DNA from: Xestospongia bergquistia
Lineage: Eukaryota > Porifera > Demospongiae > Haplosclerida > Petrosiidae
Assembly (NCBI GenBank): GCA_963965975.1
Contig: OZ014411.1
Span: 9,983,501 to 10,047,500 of the forward strand
Direction: 5' to 3'
DNA: 64,000 nucleotides
The notes under the pieces are model-generated. The model saw nothing but the letters and a program-made list of their open reading frames with translations, searched no databases and was not told where the DNA came from. Positions 5,016 through 63,720 of the stretch are shown one piece after another; position 1 is the stretch's first letter; each line of letters begins with the position of its first letter. The position numbers and the translations under genes are program-made.

Positions 5016-8000
5016 GTGTTATGATAAAAATATCTCTCTGTGGTATCCAATAAGAAAAAGTATATGGTATAAGAAATGCAATGACACAATGTTATAATGA
5101 TACCTTCAATATATATCTTATATTATGCTATAGCTTTGTATTAACATTGATGTATTAATAGTGTAATTTATTCTTTGGCAGACAATAAATGACATCACAA
5201 ATATGAGTGCAACAAAATTACCTACCTTTAAGGAAGGAGGAACTATCTTAAGTCTTCAGTTATAAACAATTTTAATGGTACATATCAATCAAGAAATAGA
5301 TACTTACTTTGTTAACAATGTGTTGATTGGCTCCTCTCTGTATTAAAATCAAAATGACATCTTTGTGTCCCTTCTTTGCTGCTAACATGACAGCAGTATA
5401 TTCCTCCTAAACACAACATAATAAAATGATTAATTATGACAAAAAAGAATTTAACTGTTGTACATTATCTGTACCATATCATTAGTCATTACACTACAAT
5501 AGACATATTTTACAAAATTCTTGATTATAAGTACTATACATAATTATAATTCTAAAATTTGATATTACCCAACAATACACTAAATTTCTTAGCAAAGAGA
5601 AAAAGCTGCCATCCCTTATAAAGATAATGAAATCAGACTTTTAAGTTCGTTTAACAAACACTTCATCTCTCAAATACAAATAAAAGCAAATTTAAAGACT
5701 AGGTTTTACAAACCTAGCCTTTAAATCTAGGTTTGTAAAGTCTAGGTTTTTTATGATACAAGACAAATGTATGTAAAAGTAATGTTGCAATTAAAAAAAT
5801 TTAAAAATATCAGAATAAGAATATATAGAGAATTAAATAGTCACAAATGTATCAATATTAACTGTTAACTATAAACAGTCATACTACATTACTACGAAAA
5901 AAATAAATATACTTAGGAGTTGTACTACATTATATAAAACTTACCGGCTATTATATTATAAAAGAAAGATTCAAAAGAAAAGAAAAGACAATACCATAAA
6001 GTGGAGACATAAGAACGATAGTATAATACAATCAAAACATTACATTAAATACACTTACAAAGTACATTACATTATATATTACTTACCCGCTATAAGATCA
6101 CATTCAAGAGAAAAGTAATCATAACATCATAAAAATGGAGACAAACAATAATTTGATACAGACAACAACATTATACCGAAAACATTTTTAAATTCTATTA
6201 TACTTACCGACTGTTAGATTATAGAAACCACATTCAGAAGACAAGAAATCACAGCACCATAAAAGTGAGACAAAAATAATAATATAATATAACAAAAAAA
6301 TGCATTTACAAATACATCTGTATTATATGTATGTTTGCAAATATAATGACAATGGTATGTTTATATCAAAGAAATTGATAAAACCATTTAAATTTATTTA
6401 AGAAACCAGTAAATGGTTGTTTGCAAATCTTTCAAAAAGATGACAGGATAATTTCACGTAAAGAGGTTTGCTTATTAATTACATTTAAGCTCGATTAAAT
6501 TATTTTTGTTAAGCTACATGTTTTATATGCTATACTATCGTAATAAGCATGTTAATACTATAAACCAGTACTTTTCTATTGTAAATGTGATACAGTTGCA
6601 GTATATAAACTTCATAAAGTCAGGAAAAATACTTGAAACATAATAACAATCTATTTTCTAATAGCAACTATCTAGTCACAGCTTATACAAAATAAATTAC
6701 GTAGAATAAAAACACACTTATTTTTATAATTTAAATAACCTCAGTAGTAGCGATGTTGACCTCAGCACCATTATCAAGTAATGCTTCCACAATGTCTTGA
6801 TGTCCCCTATCAGCTGCATAATGAAGGGCAGCCCATCCATCCTATTAAAATATAAAATTAAGCTATTAACACTCTATCTTCAATGCACAGAATAAAATTA
6901 TCAGTCTTATACATGTTAGTTATACATATCTAAACAATACGTTTATATAGTGCATGGACAAAATGATTGTCAAGGCATGAATGTCATATAATTATATATA
7001 ATAATGCTAGGGTTTAAATAGCTTTTAAGCAACTTTCTAGCTGGAGTGTATCATAACTGCTTAGGTTGTCTCCTTAATTTTATCCAGTGTATTGGCCACC
7101 TCAAAGCCCTCATTTAAACCCAATAATCAATTGAACTTCTGTAGGTACACCTGGAAAGAGAGTTGAAATACTTTTCAGTTATAAACAATCTATATAGGGT
7201 AAGAATGACTTCTGTACTTGTATGGCTATCCCTTGCTTTAAATATTGCATGAATACTTGAGGGTATTAAATTTACCAGGTTACTCAGGATTTCTTGGGGA
7301 ATTTGTGCCCAGATCTATCTAAATTTCCTGACATTTCATCCATGGCTATGGTTGTTGTAGTTTAACAATAATATATTTACCTTTATTCACTTTCTTGTAT
7401 ATAACTCATACTATTAGTAATACAATAACACTCAAACTACTAGAAATACCAGTAACCAGCACTTGATTTTATATCTACACATACTTGCTATTTTTAAGGA
7501 GTAATGCAAAGAGGCTTGTTCACAATTTAAGTGAGTTGTTACATGATCAACATAATAATTAACAAGAAATATAGCAACATTTGTTTAAGCAATGTTGGAT
7601 AATTATCACAAAATTTCTAAGCATAATCATTAAATTAAGTTAAATTTTAAGCCATAACATTACTTTATAGACGAACAAGATATCTTTTAGTCAACTGAAA
7701 TGATAAAGGATAATATTGATCATATTCAAAGGATAAGTTTTTAGACTGACTGTCAAATTAATAAAGTATACCAAATGATTCTAGCTTACCAAGTGATCTT
7801 TACTATTTATATCTGCCCCTTTTGAAAGAGCATCTTTCACTCCTGACAAGTCACCTTTCTTAACTGATTCAATCTATAGCAAAAAAGAAATGACCATTTA
7901 TCATATTAATACTGTAATTATTATCAGATTTCTATGAACTCAGATGTTTTAAATAAATATTATCAGCAATTTATTATTCATTATTTATTATAATATAAAT

Positions 8001-12327: not shown

Positions 12328-12880
12328 GGTTGCTCTATATTAGTAATTTTTTCAATATTATATATATGTATATATTTTTAAAAAAGAACAAACTTTATAA
12401 GAACAAGTAAATGGTGGGTTGACAGAGAAAGTCACTAAAAATAACACACTATATTCTCACAGCTGGTCACCGTATTGTGACAATGGTTGTTAATTAACAT
12501 TCCGCGTGTTACAAAATCGTGACTGTGGTAACTCCGGGAAACCCCTAATTTCAGTACTTTAACGTCAACAGGCAGTGGTTGCTAATCATTGTATTGTAAA
12601 GTTACGGTTTCATAAAGGAAATGAAAGTTTCTTCAGTCAGCATGCTGTGGATACTTTGCAAGATTTGCAGTCGAGATTGTGGGACTGTGATGAAACAGAT
12701 TTTTGCACATTAAAAGTAACGTATTGCTAGGAAAGGATCGTGAATGGTCATGAATGTTTTTTGGCTTTAGAAGTGCTTCATTAAAAGGAATCCGTTACTG
12801 TATAGAAGTGAGGGTAGATATTCCAATTTAAATTCTATTTTCCAAATGCCAATGCTATTTTCCAAAAGAACGTTATGGAA
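12328..12880. other. noncoding flank of piggyBac relic
   Basis: A somewhat GC-richer stretch with no recognisable gene. TTAA occurs near 12492, the target-site sequence of piggyBac elements, but no matching terminal repeat was found. The last 60 bases contain degenerate forms of the adjacent minisatellite unit. Confidence 0.35.
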
Positions 12881-29743: not shown

Positions 29744-32700
29744 TTAAGTACTAGAAGTAGGTGTGGTCTCACCATCTACAAAGGAGACAAAAAAATCAGT
29801 ACATAAGGCAGAAATGATAATGCATGTACTATGAGAATAACGCATGTACTATTGATTTTAAAAAATTCTTATGTACTGTAACCACAATGCTAGTAAAACA
29901 TAATGTATATAATATACCTGGATATTCCTTCAAAAATTGACAGATTTCAATTGCTAGTGATCTCTTCTGTAAGGGACCCTCTATAACTGTGATAAGATTA
30001 TGCCATGTCACTGGAGTAGGCTCATTGTCCAACCAGCTCTGTAACATCTTAGACAACTTAACTTGTTCTGAAAAGTTGGAATAGCACAATCCCTCAATAG
30101 TGTCTGAATTAACACCAAGTAGATCACCAATCTCTTGCCATTTACTAGTGACAGAAGAGAGCAGCCTTAGCATCACATGTTTCTGTGGCTTACTAGCTGT
30201 AATAGAATAAGAATTAGAAACATAACATTATGACCAAAGTTAGAGCACAATTTCTATAGAAAACTATTACTAATACCTAAGTGGTTTTAGTGGCAAATGT
30301 GTACTAACATGTACAGTATATCTGTAAATAACAATACATTAAAAAACTAATGATAGAATTATCAAAGATAATGTAATGTTCATTAAGTCTCAATGCTTTC
30401 TTAGTAATTTTTATTGGGAACATCTACATGTAATAAAATACATCACCATTCATTTAAAACTCTGACTTACAAAGTATAGAATTAGGTGGCATAGATAGCA
30501 CAGAGGCTTCTGCACTAGCTGTATGTGCTTCAGGAATAGAATCTAGCATTTAAGAAAACAAAAGTAAATAAGATGTTACTATGTGATAAATGAACTCAGT
30601 CATACACTCACCTTTTAGCCAGCAAAGTTGCCTCTCATCAATTACTTTAAAGGCAGCTATCTCAGACTCAACTAAGCAATTTCCAAAAATGCAACCTTTA
30701 TCATATTTAAAGGAGATGCCATGCAACTTGCCATCATCTTTTCGATGCTTCTGTTGACAAACTAGAGTTGCCACAGGCTTCAACTGATCAACATCATATA
30801 GCAACAACTCTGTACATGTTGTCATTGCCTTTGTTATAGCTATGCGTACTTGAGGGCATTCTTTTTGAGGGCCAGTGAAGTAAACTTCGATACATTTAAA
30901 ATTATCTACTAGGAGAACAGTGCCAAAGAGATCTTTGGAGTAAAGCTTAACACCATAACGAAGTTGTCTTTCATAGGTACGGGATTCACTGTCAATAGAG
31001 AATTGAGGCGATCCTTGTCTTTGTAACAAAGATATCACAAGAGCAGGAAACATGCCCTAAAAATCAACATTTTTGTTATTGTAAGTACACTTAGTAGATG
31101 TATGTTGTCCAAATGCTGTTGTCATAAAGTAGTTTGTAAATATATCTTTAGTAGTAATAATAACGTAACAACTGAAGAGAAAGCTTATCTTGGACTTGTA
31201 TGAAATGTATAAGATAGAAATATGTGAAATAAAATCATTACTTTGGTTTAAAGGCAACACTATGAAATCTAAATAATGGCTTGGCATAATATTATACTTT
31301 AAGGAGGTAGGACTTTTTATTAAGATATTGAGAGTTAAAAATACTTAATTGGACCCATTAAGGAGAATCTAAACAATAGTGTGATTATGGCATAATGATA
31401 AGAGTAGCTCTCCTATTTGACTTAATTACTCATTACTTTTGATTTATAAATACAAATAAATCATGTGTAAATATGGCAAATGAATTGATAATATCACTAT
31501 AAAAATTTAAATGAATAATTAAGGGTAGCTAAATATATTAAATGGAGCAATATAATGGATTAATGCTTGCTTACACAATTACAGAACAAACATGACACTT
31601 AGCCATACCTGAGGGACAACTCGACCACTAAATTCAATAATCATTGGATCACAAGATTTAGCAAAGATCAGTTTATCCTCATCTGTCAGCTGACTAGGTG
31701 GCAACACAATAGGAAGGAAATAACGGTTCAGAGAGGCTTCTGGAGCAGAGAGAGGAGCAATAATGCAAAGAGAACAAAGTAGATTTAGAAAATCTTCTTT
31801 AGTGAAGAGTGGAGGTACAAAGGAAAGAGAGAGATCATCAAGTAGAGAATCTTCAAATATACCATCTTCACGAAGGAGCCATTGGGTCTCTGGAGATATA
31901 GAGCAACTACCAGGTAGTATTTCCTCCATCAAATCTACAAAGGAGACACTTATCAAACGAGAGAGCATGTCTAGAAGAAACTGAGGATCTGTGAATACAA
32001 CATTCGGCAACACTCTTGGAAAATGTAAAAATGAACTGAAGGAGTCGAGGTAGACAGCACACTGTAACACTTCACTTCTATCCATTCCTAATTGAAAACC
32101 AATGTTGTAACAAGTCTCTAGGGAGATGATGCCATGTTGATTTTCTGTAATCTTGGTAACCTCTTCCAAAACATTTATTTCAAACATATACCAACGTACA
32201 GGTATAGGAACACTAAAGGCAATGCCAACTTTAGACGTAATTCGCTCACGAATAGCAGAGGACACTTTTTTTCGACTCCACCAGCAGAGATTATCAACAG
32301 GAAAGATCACCTCTTGAGAATCGTCATCATAAAAAATAAACTGACTTTTAAACTCGTGCAGTGTTGACAAAAGATGTGCATTTTTATCTCTTAAAGTTTT
32401 ATCAATTAGTGATTGCTTTTTAAGCTGCTTCTTTAACTTATCAAAATACGAGCCAACTATGACAAAGAGAGGCTTGGAGGCTACAACCATCTTTCCTGTT
32501 GATGCAACAATATTTTTAGATGACATTATGGAACGTACAAAACTTTCGATTAGCTCAAGATTGGTCATCTTTAACTCACTTGGCTGATGAAGTATTTTTC
32601 CATCAAGTGAATAGCAGAAACGAGGCTTATCAAAAAGACTTTCTGTTAACTTGGTAATAATGACATGGATTGCATTACCATGAAGGAAGAACCGAGATAC

Positions 32701-34275
32701 ATCAGCAAATTGAGGTTGACCACCACTATCGAGAACATGTATCCACGTGGCTTTATGAAGCTGCTCGGATTTTTTGCGATTTAAAAGAAGATCAACCATT
32801 TCTTTTGAGTGGGAATTAAATTTTGTAGAGCTCAGCAACTGGGAACTGTCGTTCATTGGAGATTCTGTGTGAGATGGAGGAAATGTGGGTATGGCTTGCT
32901 GAGAATGAATATCATGATCACAAAATTCGGAATTGCTGTTGTTTAGAATGTCCATTGTAGTTATAGATATTGATTCGTTTGATAAAGCATCACCCACATT
33001 TTCCTTCTGCGTTAAAAGAACAGATGATTTCATGATATTATCATTTGACTTTATACTAATGTGACCTGGAGGTACAGCTTCTTGGGAATTACGATCAAGA
33101 TCTTGAACAGCATCTGAAAGCATCTTTAATAAATCAGGCCCAGTAATAGGTACCCATATTTTGCCTTCCTTCATATCTGCCACTCTTTCCATACCACGAA
33201 TAGGACGGGTAGATATGGCTGTGCTGTGGTGCTTTTTTGGAGCAGGCCAATTAAAAAGAAGACTCTTGAATGCTGTTTTCCCAACACATGGTGGCCCAAG
33301 AAGAACCAATTTCAGACTTGTAATAAATACATAGCCTTAACGAAGACCACGTCTAAACATAAGCTGATATTCTCCTACAAAATAGAGATATTGCATTTAT
33401 TTATTACTGTAATGAATACATAATTAGTTTGTAAGGAACTACTACAAATGGTGTTTGCATAATTACTTTACATGTATATATAACAACTCATAACCTATCT
33501 GCCTATCTTTTAATCATGACTACAGATAATAATTATGATTAAGAAAAAGTGATGGTAAAGTCTCTTAAGATGGAAAAATGTCTACTGACATATTATTCCT
33601 AATTTGAGTATGTAAAAATTTGACATTGACACAGTTTCATTTAACAAGTGACATCGCCTACTATCTATCAAGGAATGTTTCTACCTATACATTCCTACAC
33701 ATTCCTTACTTCTTTCAAACACTACTTTAAAATACTGCTCGTCTTCAATGTAGTCAAGTAAAGTTTTGCCATCCTAAAATTGAAAAAATGTTATTGATAC
33801 TTACAAGGTAAAACACTGCAAAAAATTAATGCAAATATAACTCCTAACTTAAGGTATTTAGATCATTCTATTATCAATACACACAAAGTATTATTTACTG
33901 AATAATTGGATTATATGCACAAACAGTGATATGCTACAGGTTATGTACCTGTCATATACTTAATTGTTTCCCAATGAAATCATTTTAATTTAGATATATT
34001 TAAGCCACAAATCCCAAGCCAAGTATCAAGAATTTTGAATATATATTTTAATGGGTATCTGTCAAATATCTCATTTTATAAACATCTGCACTATATCAAT
34101 AGGTAGATACCTTATGTTTCTCATTAATATCAATGGGAATTATTTATAACATGTATGTATGTATGTATTGTATTATGTATGTATGTATGTATATATATAT
34201 AATTTTGTTATATATATAAACATTCTTAGATAATATCTTTTACATATCCCTGAGCTGGCCAGCTTATATATATAT

Positions 34276-34463: not shown

Positions 34464-37400
34464 GAATATCTGAACCTTGATATCTCTGATATAACTTATC
34501 ATGAGATTCATCACTAAACTGCAGTTGCCACTATCATATAATAATATAGTATGTGGCGTAGTAATCAATATTCTTTTAAAATCATGAATATGTAATATAT
34601 ATGGATCCATCAACAATGAAAGATCTGACAAAGCTTATCATTAGATTCACATAAACATTTTACATTATAGAACTGACACCTGATTCAAAATAAAAGGACT
34701 ATGAATAAAGAATAAGAAATGTATGTTGGATTATGAGTGTACATTGAATATCCTATACAACAGAGCAATGGTATAATTACTTCACATAGCACCATTTTCT
34801 ATTAAAGCTTCCACAATATCTCTATGTCCTTCATAAGCTGCATAATGAAGGACAGCCCACCCATTCTATTGAAATATAAAATATATCTTCATTACACACA
34901 ACAAAGTATCAATATTATACATATTAGCTACACATACCTAAATCATATACTTATATAGTACATGTACAATATGACTTGTCATTACACTAGGTATGACTGT
35001 GATGTATATATATTGATGTTAGTGTAGTAATATTGAACAACTACATATAAATCTTTATATCTTCTATATAACTGTCTGTATAGGTATTACTACCAATAAA
35101 ATCAGGTCAGCCAATACAAGATGCTTTTATGTATAACATTAAAACAACAAATTTAAAGGACTATTAACAAAACACTAACACAAAAAATTACTTTGAATAG
35201 AAAAATATACTATGAAATGAATGGCTGAGTGTCTGAAAACAATTCTATTATGAAGCTCTTTATATCACTCGTATTATTATAATGTCTATATGAAACAGTT
35301 CATTGCAAATAATCAAAGGCAATAAAGACTACATTAAATGCAGGTATTTAAAGGATAAACTTGTTGACTATAGAAATAGATTTACTAATGTAATAATAAA
35401 ACAAGTAGTTGATATCACTACTAAAATAATTATCTGTCACAGCAATAAAATGAACAATAACAACAGAAATGTAGAACATCCAAGCATCGTAGTCTAAGTA
35501 TTTGTGGGTTTTGTACACAGTTATAAGCTGGATCTAATAAGATTTAATTGTATTGACAGACAAAACATTTTATCTATGCCTTCAACTACATATATGTAGT
35601 TAAATGTGTAGTATATTACTGTCCTCCATTTCAGTTGGAATAACATCTTACTCATAAAGTTAGGTATATTAATAAATTCTCTAATAAGTATATCATGTAA
35701 TGTGTACTATATTACTCTGATATATACATATATATATATCAATGTTAATAAAAAAGTATGGTGTTTATCTATCTGTAGGTATATAATGAGAATGGCTATA
35801 TAGAATATAGAAAATTGATTGATGTGAATGTTATAGTGACACTTTCAGCAATATTATTTTATATATTATGTTATAGCTTTGTATCAATAAGAATAATTTA
35901 ATTCATTCTATTGGTATAGTCTTACAAAAATACAACAGATGTAGATAAGAATATACCAAAAATACCTATCGTCAAAGATGGAGGAACTACATTTTCAGTT
36001 ACATAACGTTTCTAACACTATATACTAACAAACATATACATTCTTACTTTGTTAACAAGGTCTACATTAGCTCCTCTCTGTATTAAAAACAAACTAACAT
36101 CTTTCTTTCCATTCATTGCTGCTAACATGACAGCAGTAGATCTTTCCTAAACACATCATAATAAAACAAATTAATGCAAAAGAAAGCAGAGTTATAACAG
36201 AGTTGTAGATTACTGTACTGGATCAGTAATTATTATGCTGCAATAGACATGTTTTACAAGCCTTCTTTATCACAAGCATTATATATATAACAATGGTATT
36301 TGATAGTCAGTAGTAAAAAAAGATACATTAATTTATTTGTAGGAGAGAAAAACCTGACATTCCTTTTAAAGAATCAGATGTTTACAAAGCTGATATTTCT
36401 CAGATTCACAAAGAAACACTTTTAAAGACTAGACTCTATACCATTAAAGTACATTTAAGATATACAACTACAGCTACAGCTAAACACCATTAATGAACAT
36501 CAGGCAAATAGAAACAAACTAGCCTATATTTACATCATGTCTTTGACAATAGTGGAAAGCACAAAGGTTTCTTTAGGTCACCACAGTGTTAACAAATTAA
36601 CAAAACATTAACTCTTGTGTATTTATTAATTTAGTTTTAATAACACACACTTTTCATGATAATTATAGTTTAAGAAATTTGAGAGTAGGTTGTCATGTTT
36701 ATACAAAGAATTACATAGTAAAGCAAGAACCTACAATATCATTGTTACAAACAATATCAATCAAAAATTCACTAATATGATAAAACAATAAAAATACTTA
36801 AAAGTTATACTACATTAAAATAAACTAACCGGCTATTATAATTATTTAAAGACCATGTTTAGAAGAAAAGCAAACACAACACCGTTAAAATAGAGACAAA
36901 AAATAATAATATAGTTTAATACATTCAAAACAATACAAAATATATTACATTATATCATAATTACCTTCTATTATATTACGAAGATGAAATTTAGAAGACA
37001 AGAAGTCCCAACACCAGAAAAGTGGAGACAAAAAAATAAAAAGGACAACAACACATTCAATACATTTATAAATTGTACCAGATTATATCATACTTACCTC
37101 CTATTATATTACAAAGAAGACAAGCAATTATAACACCATATAATTGAAGACAGAAAAGAATAATATATTACAAACAAAATCATTACATTTAAAATACTTA
37201 CAAAATATATTACATTATATCATACTTACCCACTATTATATTATAAATATGACATTCAGAAGACAAGCAATTATAACACCATAAAAGTCAAGACAAAAAA
37301 CAATAATATATTACAAACAAAATCATTACATTCAACATATTTTCAAAATATATTACATTATATCATACTTACCAGCTATTATATTATAAAGATGACATTC

Positions 37401-40400
37401 AGAAGGCAAGCAATTATAACACCATAAAAGTGAAGACAAAAAACAATAATATATTACAAACAAAATCATTACATTCAAAATATTTACAAAATATATTACA
37501 TTATATCATACTTACCTCCTATTATATTATAAAGATGACATTCAGAAGACAAGCAATTATAACACCATAAAAGTCAAGACAAAAAACAATAATATATTAC
37601 AAACAAAATCATTACATTCAAAATATTTTCAAAATATATTACATTATATCATACTTACCCGCTATTATATTATAAAGATGACATTCAGAAGACAAGCAAT
37701 TATAACACCATAAAAGTCAAGACAAAAAACAATAATATATTACAAACAAAATCATTACATTCAAAATACTTATAAAATATATTACATTATATCATACTTA
37801 CCTCCTATTATATTATAAAGATGACATTCAGAAGACAAGCAATTATAACACCATAAAAGTGAAGACAAAAAACAATAATATATTACAAACAAAATCATTA
37901 CATTCAAAGTACTAACAAAATTTATTACATTATATCATACTATGAGACAAGGTATGAGAAGAACCATCCTTCAAAATTTATCTCAGAAAGTAGTAATTGA
38001 GCATTTGTAAGTCTTTTAAAAAAGGAATTATTTCACATGAAGAGGTGTGGTTATTAATCCATCTAAGCATACTTAATGTATTTCTGTTAAGTTACATATT
38101 CACATGCTATACTATCCTAATATAAAATTTTTAATGTTAATACTATAATTAATTTGGTCTATTACTTTATTATAAAGATATCAAATTTGCAGTATATCAA
38201 CTTGATAAAGTCCTGAACAATATTTTAAACAATATAACAATATATTATCTAATAGTGATCATCCAGTAATAGCTTACATATTACCAATGTAAGAAACACT
38301 TATCTAAATTACCTCAGTAGCAATGTTGATATCAGCACCATTTTCTATTAAAGCTTCCACAATATCTCTATGTCCTTCATAAGCTGCATAATGAAGGACA
38401 GCCCACCCATTCTATTGAAATATAAAATATATCTTCATTACACACAACAAAGTATCAATATTATACATATTAGCTACACATACCTAAATCATATACTTAT
38501 ATAGTACATGTACAATATGACTTGTCATTACACTAGGTATGACTGTGATGTATATATATTGATGTTAGTGTTGTAATATTGAACAACTACATATAAATCT
38601 TTATATCTTCTGTATAACTGTCTGTATAGGTATTACTACCAATAAAATCAGGTCAGCCAATACAAGATGCTTTTATGTATAACATTAAAACAACAAATTT
38701 AAAGGACTATTAACAAAACACTAACACAAAAAATTACTTTGAATAGAAAAATATACTATGAAATGAATGGCTGAGTGTCTGAAAACAATTCTATTATGAA
38801 GCTCTTTATATCACTTGTATTATTATAATGTCTATATGAAACAGTTCATTGCAAATAATGAAAGGCAATAAAGACTACATTAAATGCAGGTATTAAAGGA
38901 TAAACTTGTTGACTATAGAAGTAGATTTACTAATGTAATAATAAAACAAGAAGTAGTTGATATCACTACTAAAATAATGATCAGTCACAACAATAAATGA
39001 ACAATAACAACAGAAATATAGAACATCCAAGCATCGTAGTCTAAGTATTTGTGGGTTTTGTACACAGTCATAAGCTGGATCTAATAAGATTTAATTGTAT
39101 TGACAGACAAAACATTTTATCTATGCCTTCAACTACATATATGTAGTTAAATGTGTAGTATATTACTGTCCTCCATTTCAGTTGGAATAACATCTTACTC
39201 ATAAAGTTAGGTATATTGATAAATTCTCTAATAAGTATATCATGTAATGTGTACTATATTACTCTGATATATATATATATATCAATGTTAATAAAAAAGT
39301 ATGGTGTTTATCTATCTGTAGGTATATAATGAGAATAGCTATATAGAATATAGAAAATTGATTGATGTGAATGTTATAGTGACACTTTCAGTAATATTAT
39401 TTTATATATTATGTTATAGCTTTGAATCAATAAGAATAATTTAATTCATTCTATTGGTATAGTCTTACAAAAATACAACAGATGTAGATAAGAATATACC
39501 AAAAATACCTATCGTCAAAGAGGGAGGAACTACATTTTCAGTTACATAACGTTTCTAACACTATATACTAACAAACATATACATTCTTACTTTGTTAACA
39601 AGGTCTACATTAGCTCCACTCTCTATTAAAAACAAACTAACATCTTTCTTTCCATTCATTGCTGCTAACATGACAGCAGTAGATCCTTCCTAAACACATC
39701 ATAATAAAACAAATTAATGTAAAACAAAGCAGAGTTATAACAGTTGTAGATTACTGTACTGGATCAGCAATTATTATGCTACAATAGACATGTTTTACAA
39801 GCCTTCTTTATCACAAGCATTATATATATAACAATGGTATTTGATAGTTAGTAGTAAAAAAAGATACATTAATTTATTTGTAGGAGAGAAAAACCTGACA
39901 TTCCGTTTAAAGAATCAGATGTTTACAAAGCTGATATTTCTCAGATTCACAAAGAAACACATTTAAAGACTAGACTCTATACCATTAAAGTACATTTAAG
40001 ATATACAACTACAGCTACAGCTAAACACCATTAATGAACATCAGGCAAATAGAAACAAACTAGCCTATATTTACATCATGTCTTTGACAATAGTGGAAAG
40101 CACAAAGGTTTCTTTAGGTCACCACACAGTGTTAACAAATTAACAAAACATTAATTCTTGTGTATTTATTAATTTTTTTTAATAACACACACTTTTCATG
40201 ATAATTATAGTTTAAGAAATTTGAGAGTAGGTTGTCATGTTTATACAAAGAATTACATAGTAAAGCAAGAACCTACAATATCATTGTTACAATCAATATC
40301 AATCAAAAATTCACTAATATGATAAAACAATAAAAATACTTAAAAGTTATACTACATTAAAATAAACTAACCGGCTATTATAATTATTTAAAGACCATGT

Positions 40401-43400
40401 TTAGAAGAAAAGCAAACACAACACCGTTAAAATAGAGACAAAAAATAATAATATATTTTAATACATTCAAAACAATACAAAATATCATTATATCATAATT
40501 ACCTTCTATTATATTATGAAGATGAAATTTAGAAGACAAGTAGTCCCAACACCAGAAAAGTGGAGACAAAAAAATAAAAAGGACAACAACAAATTCAATA
40601 CATTTATAAATTTTACCAGATTATATCATACTTACCTCCTATTATATTACAAAGAAGACATTCAGAAGACAAGCAATTATAACACCATATAATTGAAGAC
40701 AGAAAAGAATAATATATTACAAACAAAATCATTACATTTGAAATACTTACAAAATATATTACATTATATCATACTTACCGGCTATTATATTATGAAGACA
40801 ACATTCAGAAGACAAGCAATTATAACACCATAAAAGTGAAGACAAAAAACGATAATATATTACAAACAAAATCATTACATTTGAAATACTTACAAAATAT
40901 ATTACATTATATCATACTTATCGGCTATTATATTATGAAGACAACATTCAGAAGACAAGCAATTATAACACAATAAGAGTGAAAACAAAAAAAAGGACAA
41001 CAACACATTCAATACACTTATAAATTGCACTATATTATATCATACTTACCCACTATTATATTATAAAGATGATATTTAGAAGATAAGCAACAAAAACAAC
41101 ATAAAAATGGTGAGACAAAGAACAATAATATATTACATTCAAAATATTACATTATATTATACTTACCCGCTATTATATTATGAAGACAACATTCAGGAGA
41201 CAAGCGATTACAACACCATACAAGTGAAGACAAAAAACAATAATATATTACAAACAAAATCATTACATTCAAAATATTTACAAAATATATTACATTATAT
41301 CATACTTACCCCCTATTATAGTATAAATATGACATTCAGAAGGCAAGCAAATATAACACCATAAAAGTGAAGACAAAAAACAATAATATATTATAAAATC
41401 ATTACATTCAAAATATTTACAAAATATATTACATTATATCATATTTACCTGCTATTATATTACGAAGGCAACATTCAGAAGACAAGCAATTATAACACCA
41501 TAAAAGTGAAGACAAAAAACAATAATATATTACAAACAAAATCATTACATTAAAGATACTTACAAAATATATTACATTATATCATACTTACCTCCTATTA
41601 TATTACGAAGGCAACATTCAGAAGACAAGCAATTATAACACCATAAAAGTGAAGACAAAAAACAATAATATATTAAGAACAAAATCATTACATTCAAAAT
41701 ATTTACAAAATATATTACATTATATCATACTTACCCGCTATTATATTATAAAGATGACATTCAAAAGACAAGCAATTATAACACCATAAAAGTCAAGACA
41801 AAAAACAATAACATATTACAAACAAAATCATTAAATTCAAAATATTTACAAAATATATTACATTATATCATACTTACCTCCTATTATATTATAAAGATGA
41901 AATTCAGAAGACAAGCAATTATAACACCATAAAAGTGAAGACAAAAAACAATAATATATTACAAACAAAATCATTACATTCAAAATATTTATAAAATATA
42001 TTACATTATATCATACTTACCCACTATTATATTACGAAAGCAACATTCAAAAGACAAGCAATTATAATACCATAAAAGTGAAGACAAAAACAATAATATA
42101 TTACAAACAAAACTATTACATTCAAAATATTTACAAAATATATTACATTATATCATTCTTACCTCCTATTATATTACGAAGACAACATTCAGAAGACAAG
42201 TAATTATAACACCATAAAAGTGAAGACAAAAAACAATAATATATTACAAACAAAATCATTACATTCAAAATATTTACAAAATATATTACATTATATCATA
42301 CTTACCGCCTATTACGGTATAATTATGACATTCAGAAGGCAAGCAATTATAATACCATAAAAGTGAAGACAAAAAACAATAATATATTATAAAATCATTA
42401 CATTCAAAATATTTACAAAATATATCACATTATATCATACTTACATCCTATTATATTACGAAGGCAACATTCAGAAGACAAGCAATTATAACACCATAAA
42501 AGTGAAGACAAAAAACAATAATATATTACAAACAAAATCATTGCATTCAAAATATTTACAAAATATATTACATTATATCATACTTACCGCCTATTATAGT
42601 ATAAATATGACATTCAGAAGGCAAGCAATTATAACACCATAAAAGTGAAGACAAAAAACAATAATATATTACAAAATCATTACATTTAAAATATTTACAA
42701 AATATATTACATTATATCATACTTACCTCCTATTATATTACGAAGGCAACATTCAGAAGACAAGCAATTATAACACCATAAAAGTGAAGACAAAAACAAT
42801 AATATATTACAAACAAAATCATTACATTCAAAATACTTACAAAATATATTACATTATATCATACTTACCCACTATTATATTACGAAGGCGACATTCAGAA
42901 GACAAGCAATTACAACACCATAAAAGTGAAGACAAAAAACAATAATATATTACAAACAAAATCATTACATTCAAAATATTTACAAAATATATTACATTAT
43001 ATAATACTTACCTCCTATTATATTATAAAGATGACATTCAAAAGACAAGCAAATATAACACCATAAAAGTGAAGACAAAAAACAATAATATATTACAAAC
43101 AAAATCATTACATTCAAAATATTTACAAAATATATTACATTATATCATACTTACCTCCTATTATATTATAAAGATGACATTCAAAAGACAAGCAATTATA
43201 ACACCATAAAAGTGAAGACAAAAACAATAATATATTATAAACAAAATCATTACATTCAAATTATTTACAAAATATATTACATTATATCATACTTACCCCC
43301 TATTATATTATAAAGATGACATTCAGAAGACAAGTAATTATAACACCATAAAAGTGAAGACAAAAAAATAATATATTACGAACAAAATCATTACATTCAA

Positions 43401-46400
43401 AATATTTACAAAATATATTACATTATATCATACTTACCCGCTATTATATTATAAAGATGACATTCAGAAAACAAGCAATTATAACACCATAAAAGTCAAG
43501 ACAAAAAACAATAATATATTACAAACAAAATCATTACATTCAAAATACTTACAAAATATATTACATTATATCATACTTACTCGCTATTATATTATAAAGA
43601 TGACATTCATAAGACAAGCAATTATAACACCATAAAAGTCAAGACAAAAAACAATAATATATTACAAACAAAATCATTACATTCAAAATATTTACAAAAT
43701 ATATTACATTATATCATACTTACCGGCTATTATATTATAAATATGACATTCAGAAAACAAGCAATTATAACGCCATAAAAGTGAAGACAAAAAACAATAA
43801 TATATTACAAACAAAATCATTACATTCAAAATATTTACAAAATATATTACATTATATCATACTTACCCGCTATTATATTATAAAGATGACATTCAAAAGA
43901 CAAGCAATTATAACACAATAAAAGTGAAGACAAAAAACAATAATATATTACAAACAAAATCATTACATTTAAAATACTTACAAAATATAGTACATTATAT
44001 CATACTTACCCGCTATTATATTATAAAGATGACATTCAGAAGACAAGCAATTATAACACCATAAAAGTCAAGACAAAAAACAATAATATATTACAAACAA
44101 AATCATTACATTCAAAATATTTACAAAATATATTACATTATATCATACTTACCCACTATTATATTATAAAGATGACATTCATAAGACAAGCAATTATAAC
44201 ACCATAAAAGTCAAGACAAAAAACAATAATATATTACAAACAAAATGATTACATTCAAAACATTTACAAAATATATTACATTATATCATACTTACCGGCT
44301 ATTATATTATAAAGATGACATTCAAAAGACAAGCAATTATAACACAATAAAAGTGAAGACAAAAAACAATAATATATTACAAACAAAATCATTACATTCA
44401 AATACATTATATCATACTTACCCGCTATTTTATTATAAAGATGACATTCAGAAGACAAGCAATTATAACACCATAAAAGTCAAGACAAAAAACAATAATA
44501 TATTACAAACAAAATCATTACATTTAAAATACTTATAAAATATATTACATTATATCATACTTACCCCCTATTATATTTTAAAGATGACATTCACAAGACA
44601 AGCAATTATAACACCATAAAAGTCAAGACAAAAAACAATAATATATTACAAACAAAATCATTACATTCAAAATATTTACAAAATATATTAGATTATATCA
44701 TACTTACCCGCTATTATATTATAAAGATGACATTCAGAAGACAAGCAATTATAACGCCATAAAAGTCAAGACAAAAAACAATAATATATTACAAACAAAA
44801 TCATTACATTTAAAATACTTACAAAATATATTACATTATATCATACTTACCCGCTATTATATTATAAAGATGACATTCAGAAGACAAGCAATTATAACAC
44901 CATAAAAGTCAAGACAAAAAACAATAATATATTACAAACAAAATCATTACATTCAAAATATTTACAAAATATATTACATTATATCATACTTACCCGCTAT
45001 TATATTATAAAGATGACATTCAGAAGACAAGCAATTATAACACCATAAAAGTCAAGACAAAAAACAATAATATATTACAAACAAAATCATTACATTCAAA
45101 ATATTTACAAAATATATTACATTATATCATACTTACCCGCTATTATATTATAAAGATGACATTCAGAAGACAAGCAATTATAACGCCATAAAAGTCAAGA
45201 CAAAAAACAATAATATATTACAAACAAAATCATTACATTTAAAATACTTACAAAATATATTACATTATATCATACTTACCCGCTATTATATTATAAAGAT
45301 GACATTCAGAAGACAAGCAATTATAACACCATAAAAGTCAAGACAAAAAACAATAATATATTACAAACAAAATCATTACATTCAAAATACTTACAAAATA
45401 TATTACATTATATCATACTTACCCGCTATTATATTATAAAGATGACATTCAGAAGACAAGCAATTATAACACCATAAAAGTCAAGACAAAAAACAATAAT
45501 ATATTACAAACAAAATCATTACATTTAAAATACTTACAAAATATATTACATTATATCATACTTACCCGCTATTATATTATAAAGATGACATTCAGAAGAC
45601 AAGCAATTATAACACCATAAAAGTCAAGACAAAAAACAATAATATATTACAAACAAAATCATTACATTCAAAATATTTACAAAATATATTACATTATATC
45701 ATACTTACCCCCTATTATATTTTAAAGATGACATTCAGAAGACAAGCAATTATAACACCATAAAAGTCAAGACAAAAAACAATAATATATTACAAACAAA
45801 ATCATTACATTCAAAATATTTTAAAAATATATTACATTTTATCATACTTACCCGCTATTATATTATAAAGATGACATTCAGAAAACAAGCAATTATAACA
45901 CCATAAAAGTCAAGACAAAAAACAATAATATATTACAAACAAAATCATTACATTCAAAATACTTACAAAATATATTACATTATATCATACTTACTCGCTA
46001 TTATATTATAAAGATGACATTCATAAGACAAGCAATTATAACACCATAAAAGTCAAGACAAAAAACAATAATATATTACAAACAAAATCATTACATTCAA
46101 AATATTTACAAAATATATTACATTATATCATACTTACTCGCTATTATATTATAAAGATGACATTCATAAGACAAGCAATTATAACACCATAAAAGTCAAG
46201 ACAAAAAACAATAATATATTACAAACAAAATCATTACATTCAAATACATTATATCATACTTACCCGCTATTTTATTATAAAGATGACATTCAGAAGACAA
46301 GCAATTATAACACCATAAAAGTCAAGACAAAAAACAATAATATATTACAAACAAAATCATTACATTTAAAATACTTATAAAATATATTACATTATATCAT

Positions 46401-49400
46401 ACTTACCCCCTATTATATTTTAAAGATGACATTCACAAGACAAGCAATTATAACACCATAAAAGTCAAGACAAAAAACAATAATATATTACAAACAAAAT
46501 CATTACATTCAAAATACTTACAAAATATATTACATTATATCATACTTACTCGCTATTATATTATAAATATGACATTCAGAAAACAAGCAATTATAACGCC
46601 ATAAAAGTGAAGACAAAAAACAATAATATATTATAAACAAAATCATTACATTCAAATTATTTACAAAATATATTACATTATATCATACTTACCCACTATT
46701 ATATTATAAAGATGACATTCAGAAGACAAGTAATTATAACACCATAAAAGTGAAGACAAAAACAATAATATATTATAAACAAAATCATTACATTCAAATT
46801 ATTTACAAAATATATTACATTATATCATACTTACCCACTATTATATTATAAAGATGACATTCAGAAGACAAGTAATTATAACACCATAAAAGTGAAGACA
46901 AAAAAATAATATATTACGAACAAAATCATTACATTCAAAATATTTTAAAAATATATTACATTTTATCATACTTACCTCCTATTATATTACGAAGACAAGC
47001 AATTATAACACCATAAATGTGAAGACAAAAAACAATAATATATTACAAACAAAATCATTACATTCAAAATATTTACAAAATATATTACATTATATCATAC
47101 TCACCCACTATTATATTATGAAGGCAACATTCAGAAGACAAGCAATTATAACACCATAAAAGTGAAGACAAAAAACAATAATATATTACAAATAAAATCA
47201 TTACATTCAAAATATTTACAAAATGTATTACATTATATCATACTTACTGGCTATTATATTACGAAGGCAACATTCAGAAGACAAGCAATTATAACACCAT
47301 AAAAGTCAAGAAAAAAAAACAATAATATATTACAAAGAAAATCATTACATTCAAAACATTTACAAAATATATTACATTATATCATACTTACCTCCTATTA
47401 TATTATAAAGATGACATTCAGAAGACAAGTAATTACAACACCATAAAATTGAAGACAAAAAACAATAATATATTACAAACAAAATCATTACATTCAAAAT
47501 ACTTACAAAATATATTACATTATATCATACTTACCCCCTATTATAGTATAAATATGACATTCAGAAGACAAGCAATTATAACACCATAAAAGTCAAGACA
47601 AAAAACAATAATATATTACAAAAAAAATCATTACATTCAAAGTACTTACAAAATATATTATATTATATCATACTTACCGCCTATTATAGTATAAATATAA
47701 CATTCAGAAGACAAGCAATTATAACACCATAAAAGTGAAGACAAAAAACAATAATATATTACTAACAAAATCATTACATTCAAAATACTTACAAAATACA
47801 TTACATTATATCATACTTACCGCCTATTATAGTATAAATATGACATTCAGAAGACAAGCAATTATAAAACCATAAAAGTGAAGACAAAAAACAATAATAT
47901 ATTATAAACAAAATCATTACATTCAAAATATTTACAAAATATATTACATTATATCATACTTACCCACTATTATATTATAAAGATGACATTCAGAAAACAA
48001 GCAATTATAACACCATAAAAGTCAAGACAAAAAACAATAATATATTACAAACAAAATCATTACATTCAAAATACTTACAAAATACATTACATTATATCAT
48101 ACTTACCTCCTATTATATTATGAAGACAACATTTAGAAGACAAGCAATTATAACACCATAAAAGTCAAGACAAAAAACAATAATATATTACAAACAAAAT
48201 CATTACATTTAAAATATTTACAAAATATATTATATTATATCATACTTACCGCCTATTATAGTATAAATATGACATTCAGAAGGCAAGCAATTATAACATC
48301 ATAAAAATGAAGACAAAAACCAATAATATATTATAAACAAAATCATTACATTCAAAATATTTACAAATTATATTACATTATATCATACTTACCGTCTATT
48401 ATATTATAAAGATGACATTCAGAAGACAAGCAATTATAACACAATAAAAGTGAAGACAAAAAACAATAATATATTACAAACAAAATCATTACATTCAAAA
48501 TATTTACAAAATATATTACATTATATCATACTTACCCCCTATTATATTTTAAAGATGACATTCAGAAGACAAGCAATTATAACACCATAAAAGTCAAGAC
48601 AAAAAACAATAATATATTACAAACAAAATCATTACATTCAAAATATTTTAAAAATATATTACATTTTATCATACTTACCCGCTATTATATTATAAAGATG
48701 ACATTCAGAAAACAAGCAATTATAACACCATAAAAGTCAAGACAAAAAACAATAATATATTACAAACAAAATCATTACATTCAAAATACTTACAAAATAT
48801 ATTACATTATATCATACTTACTCGCTATTATATTATAAAGATGACATTCATAAGACAAGCAATTATAACACCATAAAAGTCAAGACAAAAAACAATAATA
48901 TATTACAAACAAAATCATTACATTCAAAATATTTACAAAATATATTACATTATATCATACTTACCGGCTATTATATTATAAATATGACATTCAGAAAACA
49001 AGCAATTATAACGCCATAAAAGTGAAGACAAAAAACAATAATATATTACAAACAAAATCATTACATTCAAAATATTTACAAAATATATTACATTATATCA
49101 TACTTACCCGCTATTATATTATAAAGATGACATTCAAAAGACAAGCAATTATAACACAATAAAAGTGAAGACAAAAAACAATAATATATTACAAACAAAA
49201 TCATTACATTTAAAATACTTACAAAATATAGTACATTATATCATACTTACCCGCTATTATATTATAAAGATGACATTCAGAAGACAAGCAATTATAACAC
49301 CATAAAAGTCAAGACAAAAAACAATAATATATTACAAACAAAATCATTACATTCAAAATATTTACAAAATATATTACATTATATCATACTTACCCACTAT

Positions 49401-52400
49401 TATATTATAAAGATGACATTCATAAGACAAGCAATTATAACACCATAAAAGTCAAGACAAAAAACAATAATATATTACAAACAAAATGATTACATTCAAA
49501 ACATTTACAAAATATATTACATTATATCATACTTACCGGCTATTATATTATAAAGATGACATTCAAAAGACAAGCAATTATAACACAATAAAAGTGAAGA
49601 CAAAAAACAATAATATATTACAAACAAAATCATTACATTCAAATACATTATATCATACTTACCCGCTATTTTATTATAAAGATGACATTCAGAAGACAAG
49701 CAATTATAACACCATAAAAGTCAAGACAAAAAACAATAATATATTACAAACAAAATCATTACATTTAAAATACTTATAAAATATATTACATTATATCATA
49801 CTTACCCCCTATTATATTTTAAAGATGACATTCACAAGACAAGCAATTATAACACCATAAAAGTCAAGACAAAAAACAATAATATATTACAAACAAAATC
49901 ATTACATTCAAAATATTTACAAAATATATTACATTATATCATACTTACCCCCTATTATATTTTAAAGATGACATTCAGAAGACAAGCAATTATAACACCA
50001 TAAAAGTCAAGACAAAAAACAATAATATATTACAAACAAAATCATTACATTCAAAATATTTTAAAAATATATTACATTTTATCATACTTACCCGCTATTA
50101 TATTATAAAGATGACATTCAGAAAACAAGCAATTATAACACCATAAAAGTCAAGACAAAAAACAATAATATATTACAAACAAAATCATTACATTCAAAAT
50201 ACTTACAAAATATATTACATTATATCATACTTACTCGCTATTATATTATAAAGATGACATTCATAAGACAAGCAATTATAACACCATAAAAGTCAAGACA
50301 AAAAACAATAATATATTACAAACAAAATCATTACATTCAAAATATTTACAAAATATATTACATTATATCATACTTACCGGCTATTATATTATAAATATGA
50401 CATTCAGAAAACAAGCAATTATAACGCCATAAAAGTGAAGACAAAAAACAATAATATATTACAAACAAAATCATTACATTCAAAATATTTACAAAATATA
50501 TTACATTATATCATACTTACCCGCTATTATATTATAAAGATGACATTCAAAAGACAAGCAATTATAACACAATAAAAGTGAAGACAAAAAACAATAATAT
50601 ATTACAAACAAAATCATTACATTTAAAATACTTACAAAATATAGTACATTATATCATACTTACCCGCTATTATATTATAAAGATGACATTCAGAAGACAA
50701 GCAATTATAACACCATAAAAGTCAAGACAAAAAACAATAATATATTACAAACAAAATCATTACATTCAAAATATTTACAAAATATATTACATTATATCAT
50801 ACTTACCCACTATTATATTATAAAGATGACATTCATAAGACAAGCAATTATAACACCATAAAAGTCAAGACAAAAAACAATAATATATTACAAACAAAAT
50901 GATTACATTCAAAACATTTACAAAATATATTACATTATATCATACTTACCGGCTATTATATTATAAAGATGACATTCAAAAGACAAGCAATTATAACACA
51001 ATAAAAGTGAAGACAAAAAACAATAATATATTACAAACAAAATCATTACATTCAAATACATTATATCATACTTACCCGCTATTTTATTATAAAGATGACA
51101 TTCAGAAGACAAGCAATTATAACACCATAAAAGTCAAGACAAAAAACAATAATATATTACAAACAAAATCATTACATTTAAAATACTTATAAAATATATT
51201 ACATTATATCATACTTACCCCCTATTATATTTTAAAGATGACATTCACAAGACAAGCAATTATAACACCATAAAAGTCAAGACAAAAAACAATAATATAT
51301 TACAAACAAAATCATTACATTCAAAATATTTACAAAATATATTAGATTATATCATACTTACCCGCTATTATATTATAAAGATGACATTCAGAAGACAAGC
51401 AATTATAACGCCATAAAAGTCAAGACAAAAAACAATAATATATTACAAACAAAATCATTACATTTAAAATACTTACAAAATATATTACATTATATCATAC
51501 TTACCCGCTATTATATTATAAAGATGACATTCAGAAGACAAGCAATTATAACACCATAAAAGTCAAGACAAAAAACAATAATATATTACAAACAAAATCA
51601 TTACATTCAAAATATTTACAAAATATATTACATTATATCATACTTACCCGCTATTATATTATAAAGATGACATTCAGAAGACAAGCAATTATAACACCAT
51701 AAAAGTCAAGACAAAAAACAATAATATATTACAAACAAAATCATTACATTCAAAATATTTACAAAATATATTACATTATATCATACTTACCCGCTATTAT
51801 ATTATAAAGATGACATTCAGAAGACAAGCAATTATAACGCCATAAAAGTCAAGACAAAAAACAATAATATATTACAAACAAAATCATTACATTTAAAATA
51901 CTTACAAAATATATTACATTATATCATACTTACCCGCTATTATATTATAAAGATGACATTCAGAAGACAAGCAATTATAACACCATAAAAGTCAAGACAA
52001 AAAACAATAATATATTACAAACAAAATCATTACATTCAAAATATTTACAAAATATATTACATTATATCATACTTACCCGCTATTATATTATAAAGATGAC
52101 ATTCAGAAGACAAGCAATTATAACACCATAAAAGTCAAGACAAAAAACAATAATATATTACAAACAAAATCATTAAATTCAAAATATTTACAAAATATAT
52201 TACATTATATCATACTTACCCGCTATTATATTATAAAGATGACATTCAGAAGACAAGCAATTATAACACCATAAAAGTGAAGACAAAAAACAATAATATA
52301 TTACAAACAAAATCATTACATTTAAAATACTTACAAAATGTATTACTTTATATCATACTTACCAACTATTATATTACGAAGGCAACATTCAGAAGACAAG

Positions 52401-55400
52401 CAATTATAACACCATAAAAGTGAAGACAAAAAACAATAATATATTACAAACAAAATCATTACATTCAAAATATTTACAAAATATATTACATTATATCATA
52501 CTCACCCACTATTATATTATGAAGGCAACATTCAGAAGACAAGCAATTATAACACCATAAAAGTGAAGACAAAAAACAATAATATATTACAAACAAAATC
52601 ATTACATTCAAAATACTGACAAAATTTATTACATTATATCATACTATGAGGCAAGGTATGAGAAAAACCATCCTTCAAAATTTATCTCAGAAAGTAGTAA
52701 TTGAGCATTTGTAAGTCTTTTAAAAAAGGAATTATTTCACATGAAGAGGTGTGGTTATTAATCCATCTAAGCATACTTAATGTATTTCTGTTAAGTTACA
52801 TATTCACATGCTATACTATCCTAATATAAAATTTTTAATGTTAATACTATAATTAATTTGGTCTATTACTTTATTATAAAGATATCAAATTTGCAGTATA
52901 TAAACTTAATAAAGTCATGAACAATATTCTAAACAATATAACAATATATTATCTAATAGTGATCATCCAGTAATAGCTTACATATTACCAATATAAGAAA
53001 CACTTATCTAAATTACCTCAGTAGCAATGTTGATATCAGCACCATTTTCTATTAAAGCTTCCACAATATCTCTATGTCCTTCATAAGCTGCATAATGAAG
53101 GACAGCCCACCCATTCTATTGAAATATAAAATATATCTTCATTACACACAACAAAGTATCAATATTATACATATTAGCTACACATACCTAAATCGTATAC
53201 TTATATAGTACATGTACAATATGACTTGTCATTACACTAGGTATGACTGTGATGTATATATATTGATGTTAGTATTGTAATATTGAGCAACTACATATAA
53301 ATCTTTATATCTTCTGTATAACTGTCTGTATAGGTATTACTACCAATAAAATCAGGTCAGCCAATACAAGATGTTTTATGTATAACATTAAAACAACAAA
53401 TTTAAAGGACTATTAACAAAACACTAACACAAAAAATACTCTGAATAGAACATGTTGACAATAGATATACCAATGTAACAATAGTAAAAAAAATTAGTTA
53501 ATTTGGTTCCTAAAATGATTAGGTTAATAGTTACAACAAAAAAATGAACAATAAGAGCAGAAGTATAGAACATCCTAGCATTACAGTGTAAGAGCATTAG
53601 TGAGCTTTGAATAATTACATTCAAAGAAATCTGTAATTAACCTTGATGTGCGTGGGCTCATAGCGAGGGCTACTGTAGTCTGTCAGTGTGTGTGTGTGTG
53701 CTACCCAGGCAAGTGGCTTTGAACTGCTTTAACTCAGCAAACAAGGCACTAGTAGCCATCAAACTATAGAGGACAGTAGCAAAACTTCTGTACTTCTTAA
53801 GAATACTGCCAAAAGGAGCGTCAAATGAACAAAAAGCTTTGAAAGTCTGAAAACCTTTGAAAAAAAGCACAGCTTTCAGTGAAGACTCAAGAATTCAATA
53901 AAAACCTCCTGAATACAGCTTATGGCATTTTCCAACTTTTTAAAGTGAGAATTTTGGAAAAATTATTTCTTTGGAAAGTTATGACAATTTTACTAACTTT
54001 TGGCAGTTATCTTTGTTGATACATTGAGCACGAACTAAAAATACTAGCACCATAGCTGTCATTGGAGAATCACTGGGTTTTACTAAGAAGTTGGAAAGTA
54101 TTGGGCCTTTTGTCAATTAGAGTGCAAAGTACCCAGTAGACGCACTAAAAGGCAAAGCTTTTTCCCCTTTGATGAAGAGAAATGCTGAGTCATCGATAAT
54201 CATCTTGCGCACATGTAAGATTACATCACTTGAGGAGAATAAGGAAGTCTCTGGATAATACCGCAGCGAGGTTAAGCACTTTAGTGCATTTCATTTATAA
54301 CAGGATTCAGTTTTGTTTGACAGGGAAAACAGTTTGTTAAAGCCCTTAAATGCACATGTACTATGTGTAGTCAACTATATGGCATATTACTATGTTTCAT
54401 CTCATTTTGAACAGACAGAACTAATTTGTAAATGCTTTTAACTGTACATGTGTAGTATACTACTGTCACTCATGGACATAACATAAGATATATTAACAAA
54501 GAAATAACTTCTCTCGTGTACATTATATTATATATTATATACAGGGGGGCAAAAATAATTGAATGACTCCTTTATATTACTTGTAATAGTTAAATATTTG
54601 TAAAACCACATGCACATTTCCACTTAAAGCATTTAAAACATTACAACTGCACACTATTTTCAGTGTAATCCCTTTTTAGCTGTATAATAACTGTTTATAT
54701 CTAGTCTCCTTAATTTTATCCATTTAACCTAAAGTCCCTACTTTTTAGTTATGCATGGAGGCAAGCCAACTAATGAATACAAAAAAATAAAATTATTACT
54801 TAAAAAAGAAGGCATGTCCTACAGAGATGTAGAGAAAAGTTCATGTTCCCAAGTCAACAGTTATTGATGTTTGGATTTGATATAATGAAATGTATAGCAC
54901 TAAAATTAAGTAAAATTCCAGGTAGACAATTATCTTCAATGTCAAGACAAATAGACTATAAACTAGGATGTCTCTGCAAAAACATACTTACTGCTCCTCC
55001 ACTTTGGCTTGCCTGGCAAGATGCCCATGTATCTTAACAAGTACAATTAAGTCTCAATTGGCATCTTCTAGGCTAAGGGCTGCGTTGCCAGATAGAAGCC
55101 CCTATATTAACACTACACCATTGGCAGTTCCACCTTCAATTCACTCAAGAATAATTATAATGACTGGACCAGAGATGATTAAATGAAAATAATATGGAGT
55201 AATGAGAGTAAATTCAATCTAATTAGAATCAATGAAAGGACATACATCAGGCAATTAGTGTCAGAGGAGTTCAGAGATGAGCTTGTATATATTCAAAGAA
55301 AATATTTTAAGATTACTGTCACATTAATGAGAAGAATATATAATTAATGAAACTAACTTACCAAAAAATCTCTACTATTTACATCTTCCCCCTTTGAGAT

Positions 55401-59181: not shown

Positions 59182-63720
<4,539 letters not shown>

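Follow-up and report, generated by a model that had tools for sequence, protein, structure and literature searches.

Long intronic arrays of tandem units were found in a stretch of 64,000 nucleotides (nt) of contig OZ014411.1 (C1) of the sponge Xestospongia bergquistia (C1:9983501-10047500, hereafter the window). They lie in introns of apparent ankyrin-repeat (ANK) genes, and each unit sets three variable nucleotides between a putative splice acceptor and a putative splice donor. According to our best reading of the sequence, these triplets quite probably are exons of one codon each, translated and diversified, of which splicing would include one or a few. The whole analysis was performed on the DNA of one genome assembly (146.46 Mb, 21 contigs), and 30 genome pieces were analysed beside the window. 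The anatomy of the units, the spacing of their splice sites, the avoidance of stop codons, the accelerated change at the triplet and the position of the arrays within the host genes could all be read from this DNA directly.

Junction arrays in the window and across the genome

As listed in Table 1, the largest array of the window (array A) and a smaller one (array B) occupy neighbouring introns of the same apparent gene, and their junctions read AG-NNN-GTAAGT in the sense of this ankyrin-Roc/COR-Death-like gene. AG and GT were intact at 86 of the 87 sites of array A, the exception being 40922-40924, where AT stands in place of GT. The junction core TATAATAGNNNGTAAGTATG had 81 matches in the window, all on the minus strand, against 0.01 expected from dinucleotide shuffles, so that a chance origin of the core was ruled out. 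No known RNA family reached its gathering score across positions 36000-53500. Short arrays only were seen in a second ANK gene, with exons at 0.8-6.8 kb of the window.

Table 1 ANK exons, arrays and associated stretches (window positions, unless marked C1)
Feature	Position	Strand	Remarks
Type-1 ANK exon before array A	53017..53115	-	99 bp, phase 0, weak donor GAG/GTAATT
Array A	40372..52508	-	87 junction sites, putative 3-nt exons, mostly 143-bp units, between ANK exons 53017-53115 and 39591-39689
Terminal diverged microexon CCG (Pro)	40372..40374	-	donor GTTAGT; downstream end of array A
Counterparts of the CCG/GTTAGT microexon	36830-36832 (array B) and C1:9956229		
Type-2 ANK exon after array A	39591..39689	-	99 bp, phase 0, donor GTAAGA
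Type-1 ANK exon before array B	38313..38411	-	
Array B	36830..37804	-	8 junctions, in the following type-1/type-2 intron of the apparent gene that carries array A
Type-2 ANK exon after array B	36048..36146	-	
Partial type-1 ANK repeat after array B	34788..34865	-	
585-aa open stretch, Roc and COR-A similarity	31582..33336	-	both below Pfam gathering score
Death-like domain stretch	29832..30227	-	below gathering score
Small array, 3 junctions	5945..6210	-	second gene, between ANK exons 6743-6841 and 5308-5406
Two small groups, 3 and 5 junctions	1600..3402	-	second gene, between ANK exons 4054-4152 and 787-885

Candidate junctions were kept when they had AG before and GT after the triplet and no more than 7 mismatches. 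In the window and the C1 pieces, 464 of 492 candidates were kept, falling into 32 groups of 1 to 85 kept units, and five more loci on contigs C2, C4 and C7 added 85 units, which gave a total of 549 units in 37 groups. Of the 28 dropped junctions, some were opposite-strand or chance matches, others true units in which the donor or the acceptor was broken, and others again diverged units with 8 mismatches; this last kind included four TTG units of the 19.53-Mb array. One of the dropped opposite-strand or chance matches reads TAA but has neither AG nor GT. Genome-wide junction counts were obtained from exact pattern matches.

Pattern searches located the same junction on at least four contigs (C1, C2, C4 and C7). 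A type-1 ANK exon (signature ..GWTALHYA..GADIN..) upstream and a type-2 exon downstream flanked 28 of the 32 C1 groups, and the remaining four had the correct exon type on the single side seen. All 32 were oriented as their host ANK exons, and among them no array was seen in introns leading from a type-2 to a type-1 exon. The same kinds of ANK exons surround an array at 11.17 Mb of C2. Tandem homologous units between constant exons were thus present, with unit lengths from 98 to 197 bp; 202 of 395 lengths differed from 143, and 180 of these did so by a non-multiple of 3.

A preliminary description of the window had counted about 85 units with AG-NNN-GTAAGT in array A; the number came to 87 sites, 86 of them intact, in a family that extends beyond the window. 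Its 17 triplets, read across the arrays of genes that it called A and B, are exactly those of the window arrays (19 types minus two low-scoring chance matches), with the small correction that arrays A and B hold 14 of them, while TCG, AGG and ATG belong to the short arrays at 1.6-6.2 kb. It had correctly counted 14 of the 16 NNG forms in the window. As for the two forms it had not seen, GTG is indeed absent from the window but occurs in 40 of the 549 units overall, and TAG was found neither in these units nor among exact matches across the genome.

Many junction matches about 630-650 bp apart were also seen, among the matches listed, at C1:17.37-17.45, 20.37-20.40 and 21.01-21.03 Mb, which suggests arrays with a longer unit at these places.

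Stop avoidance and fast change of the triplets

Of 434 paired sites, 433 had AG and GT 3 nt apart, and the one other row was a mispairing, which itself reads AG-CCA-GTAAGT. This spacing analysis, which used its own scoring, left 66 acceptor-like and 34 donor-like sites for which no partner site was scored; among the unpaired sites listed, those located in arrays were mostly also 3 nt spaced.

Stop codons were not found in the triplets of the 464 C1 units, where 25.6 were expected on first-base shuffling, nor in all 549 units of the 37 groups (5000 shuffles, mean 35.3, minimum 21), nor in the 219 array-distinct triplets (shuffle mean 12.5, minimum 3). TAT, TGT, TTT and TTA do occur. Exact matches across the genome numbered 916 for NNG, 344 for TNG and 205 for NAG, and none for TAG, of which about 77 would be expected if the positions were independent (344 x 205 / 916). 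The GC content of the triplet was 69, 40 and 77% by position, compared with 22% in the flanks.

These results bear on two roles that the preliminary description had offered beside that of a one-codon microexon. As zero-length recursive-splice points, the sites would act as a ratchet in the removal of the 12-kb intron of array A and leave nothing in the mRNA. An acceptor near a strong donor inside a long intron would suit such points; however, AG and GT are 3 nt apart and not juxtaposed, groups of 1 to 8 units are left without a reason, and avoidance of stops would be pointless in a triplet that does not stay in the mRNA. The ratchet reading is therefore unsupported, and we regard it as highly improbable. 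The other role, a protein-binding DNA or RNA motif with a variable 3-nt spacer and no relation to splicing, would explain a variable core within conserved flanks. Yet such a spacer has no reason to avoid TAA, TAG and TGA, the flanks fit the splice-site consensus, and all 32 C1 groups run in the direction of their host ANK exons, which makes this role extremely improbable.

The triplets were also found to change fast. In 464 units aligned over 140 columns, triplet positions 1 and 2 had the highest entropy (1.89 and 1.83 bits, against a median of 0.64), in agreement with the earlier claim that the triplet is the most variable part of the unit. On a tree of these units built without the triplet, positions 1 and 2 changed 134 times each and position 3 changed 67 times, compared with a median of 17 and a maximum of 54 in the other columns. 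Trees from the left or the right columns only gave 141 and 149 changes at position 1, whereas the columns outside the tree reached at most 83 and 84. With held-out blocks in 216 units of four arrays, the triplet showed 65, 56 and 23 changes, and 66 control columns had a median of 4 and a maximum of 28. Recombination at the unit border, considered as a cause that could inflate triplet change, was rejected, as the excess persisted on the left-only, right-only and held-out-column trees. The exception in this control was the array at C1:19700891, where on the right tree one of 70 other-side columns reached the triplet level.

Within single arrays, triplet positions 1 and 2 exceeded the mid-intron columns in every one of the 10 C1 arrays that have 14 or more units, by ratios of 2.3-13.9, and the pooled rate ratio was 5.98 with a 95% bootstrap interval of 4.0-9.0. 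The array at 1.18 Mb of C2 behaved similarly, with 13, 11 and 8 changes at the triplet and a median of 1 and a maximum of 10 elsewhere, and the one at C2:11.17 Mb was less sharp (5, 6 and 5 changes, others at most 6). We propose from these patterns that selection may have diversified the codons.

Splicing noise would offer another origin, in which an AT-rich intronic minisatellite happens to carry good splice sites, stops are purged because occasional inclusion makes them harmful, and inclusion has no function. It accounts for the stop avoidance and the constant spacing, and block duplication would multiply the units. Under such noise the codons should be neutral at best, yet positions 1 and 2 outpace the intron body 4- to 9-fold; GC-rich triplets on a 22% background and the confinement of the C1 groups to one intron class also speak against it. 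We consider noise improbable.

A hypermutable triplet, produced by targeted mutation or a replicative process at the unit border with coding as a secondary matter, was given a similarly low probability, although as a cause of diversity it is compatible with the best explanation. In its favour, 27 of 124 pairs of units with identical 120-nt flanks already had unlike triplets, and 22 of the 27 differed there by 2 or 3 nt. However, stops would not be avoided through hypermutation alone, and the arrays of C4 (L036 and L037, at 2.68 and 3.13 Mb), which share the junction, were not accelerated. In 29 of the 30 C4 units (one out of register was left out, and the 7 C7 units of L038 lay outside the rate analysis), the triplet had 2, 1 and 5 changes, and other columns a mean of 2.0 and a maximum of 8. 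TTG or TTA, both Leu, filled 25 of these 29 triplets. Since the same junction on C4 is mostly Leu and unaccelerated, the fast change elsewhere is more readily put down to selection on the residue than to a mutable site, with the qualification that the C4 host gene was not recognised.

Taken with the phase-0 hosts described below, the near-absence of stops, the 3-nt spacing, the fast change and the GC-rich triplets strongly support the one-codon microexon that the preliminary description had put forward; its statement that no triplet is a stop held for all 549 units.

Host genes and a proposed splicing route

From their order and common strand, the ANK, Roc/COR and Death-like pieces of the window may belong to one transcript. 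The ANK repeats scored 40.7 and 27.9 bits, above the curated cut-off of 21.1. For Roc, the window gene reached 20.6 bits, below the cut-off of 27, and a relative at 19.52 Mb reached 35.4, above it; the same relative passed the cut-off for Death (27.4 bits, cut-off 22.6). COR-A scores were below the cut-off of 35.3 in both the window gene (19.7 bits) and the 19.52-Mb relative (20.6 bits). At least 111 genome matches were obtained for the Roc/COR stretch, with 75 of 492 candidates scored, and therefore the family is large. Its best other matches in the genome were 92% and 63-64% identical and without inner stops, and a search for sequence relatives of the stretch in the PDB gave none up to E = 1. 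Roc/COR similarity was also seen at C1:9978012-9979842, downstream of the window's second ANK gene; two of its three pieces contain in-frame stops, and this is possibly a decayed gene.

Phase 0 of the host introns, as stated in the preliminary description, was recovered in the fetched C1 pieces, where 72 of 73 ANK exons had the donor and 70 of 73 the acceptor at a codon border. When the window ANK exons were joined without microexons, they could be aligned without gaps to ankyrin-1/2 and to designed ankyrin proteins (DARPins) in the PDB. In this alignment the exon joint falls between both x of the DxxG motif, and the array intron joint corresponds to ankyrin repeat residues 33 and 1, the tip of the beta-hairpin, in phase 0. 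We take the x positions of DxxG to be the hairpin-tip positions that are randomised in DARPins. A transcript with zero microexons would thus encode a normal ankyrin pair, and each microexon would add one extra residue at the hairpin tip.

The donors differed clearly between exon kinds. GTAAG was absent from all 31 type-1 exons (mostly GTAATT or GTACGA), and it was present in 39 of 41 type-2 and other ANK exons and in 437 of 464 microexons. In the splicing route that we propose, each unit would be a 3-nt exon made of one codon, with its own acceptor TATAATAG, a near-perfect donor GTAAGT and introns of about 140 nt between units. In the C1 clusters studied, ankyrin-Roc(/COR)-Death genes carry the arrays in one phase-0 intron class. 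As each exon would consist of exactly one sense codon, transcripts could take up any number of them with the frame kept and no stop introduced. The weak type-1 donor may delay commitment until much of the array has been transcribed, and it would then commit to one of many equal acceptors. The strong donor of the chosen microexon could join the next unit or go straight to the type-2 exon, so every transcript would supply a potential binding loop with one residue, or a few, taken from the array. Unequal crossing over would have multiplied the units. Stepwise, recursive-like splicing in which the codons are retained is possible as well.

All microexons might instead be included constitutively by successive splicing, adding a peptide of 1 to about 86 residues at the hairpin. 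Such a chain would be served by the strong donor on most units and by stop avoidance in every sampled unit, and a 3-nt exon would regenerate a strong donor for the next step, as in the recursive splicing outlined in an excerpt of PMC8605326. But the hairpin inserts would be wildly unequal, with 1 to 85 kept units in the same intron class and 86 and 8 intact ones in one apparent gene. The peptide of array A would also be very arginine-rich (30 CGG and 6 CGA among 87 triplets), and the accelerated change at each codon would be left without a clear reason. We consider the chain unlikely. Inclusion of one or a few units is favoured over inclusion of all because 1 to about 86 units, with diverse codons, stand at one protein position. 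The preliminary description had predicted a single added residue; one codon per exon stands, and a single residue per transcript is only one among several inclusion modes.

Several observations count against alternatively used, translated codons. Inclusion in mRNA, choice among units and a receptor or immune-like role are all deduced from DNA. Duplication links the units within an array, and raw counts make them look more independent than they are. Codons are much repeated within an array, as with CGG in array A, which would be wasteful under an even choice of one unit, and several units, for example 40922-40924, have a broken donor or acceptor and were excluded from the 464. No docking/selector pairing was detected for one unit against both flanks of array A, where 50 and 26 of 60 shuffles had equal or better duplex energies, and a Dscam-type ordered, mutually exclusive choice is therefore unsupported for this array. 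The host of the C2:1.18-Mb array shows just one short ANK-like exon; for the C4 and C7 arrays no host gene was recognised, so that the C4 triplets are at most putative codons. Finally, one TGA (C1:9612266) was present among 211 genome-wide exact NNA matches, with no TAA.

This TGA, the sole exact match to a stop, opens a cluster at 9.61-9.64 Mb of C1 with matches mostly multiples of about 136 bp apart, among the matches listed.

A broader picture, which we put forward tentatively and would not rate as an even chance, is a kind of codon lottery. In a large ankyrin-Roc-Death receptor family, several introns of each gene would carry one-codon exons in arrays of up to 86, and splicing would draw residues from them into the ankyrin fingertip loops, so that the binding surface could differ per cell or transcript while the DNA is not rearranged. 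A codon's odds would be set by its copy number, and strong diversifying selection would act on the codons.

Known systems and other features of the window

The arrays resemble the Dscam1 clusters of arthropods, in which tandem homologous alternative exons diversify a receptor; for the arrays, alternative use is what we infer. Variable exons of Dscam encode parts of immunoglobulin domains, whereas here the unit is a single codon. Dscam further uses docking/selector RNA pairing (excerpt of PMC8042237). Brown algal ROCO genes are likewise Roc-type receptor-like genes with tandem repeat-encoding exons, and their leucine-rich repeat (LRR) exons undergo shuffling and alternative splicing, with diversifying selection acting on them; there, exons of 72 bp form whole LRRs, in contrast to the 3 bp between ANK exons here (excerpt of PMC11378527). 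By this likeness, an immune-like role of the sponge genes may be suggested.

Schistosome micro-exon genes also vary proteins by a few residues through the splicing of very small symmetrical exons (PMC4350168); in that source, as excerpted, such exons make up most of the coding region, unlike the hundreds of homologous one-codon units in one intron class found here. In NAGNAG splicing an exon joint gains or loses one codon, and the protein changes faster there, but in the excerpted account such splicing involves two adjacent acceptors, no separate exon and one codon per site (PMC3250501). Recursive ratchet points have an acceptor close to a donor inside long introns, and according to the excerpt their spacing is zero and they usually leave no trace in mRNA, in contrast to the spacing of 3 here (PMC8605326). 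Solitary 3-nt exons are spliced in Ncam, Drosophila TnT and RPS24 (excerpts of PMC11162997 and PMC8042270), and these are single exons rather than arrays.

In open-access literature, no array of one-codon exons was described in titles and abstracts among the matches listed, and the subscription literature was mostly outside this scope. If the triplets do enter the mRNA, hundreds of one-codon exons would allow a receptor to vary by single amino acids, at a hairpin that is also varied in designed ankyrin proteins. It would further provide a combinatorial repertoire without gene rearrangement in an early-branching animal, and a severe natural test of the spliceosome on 3-nt exons and of choice among about 86 near-identical acceptors.

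Several other features were observed in the window. A 62-bp tandem repeat of about 23 copies with 99% matches spans 12873-14283, and a short open stretch at 11376-11573 presumably resembles a piggyBac-type transposase. Two neighbouring collagen-like open stretches at 20829-21623 and 22123-22335 have a similar C-terminal part, the first matching Pfam Collagen just below the cut-off. Upstream of the ANK gene, a WD40 stretch on the minus strand (61929-62210) matches part of the WDR5 beta-propeller model, and the open stretches next to it, up to 63720, look similar.

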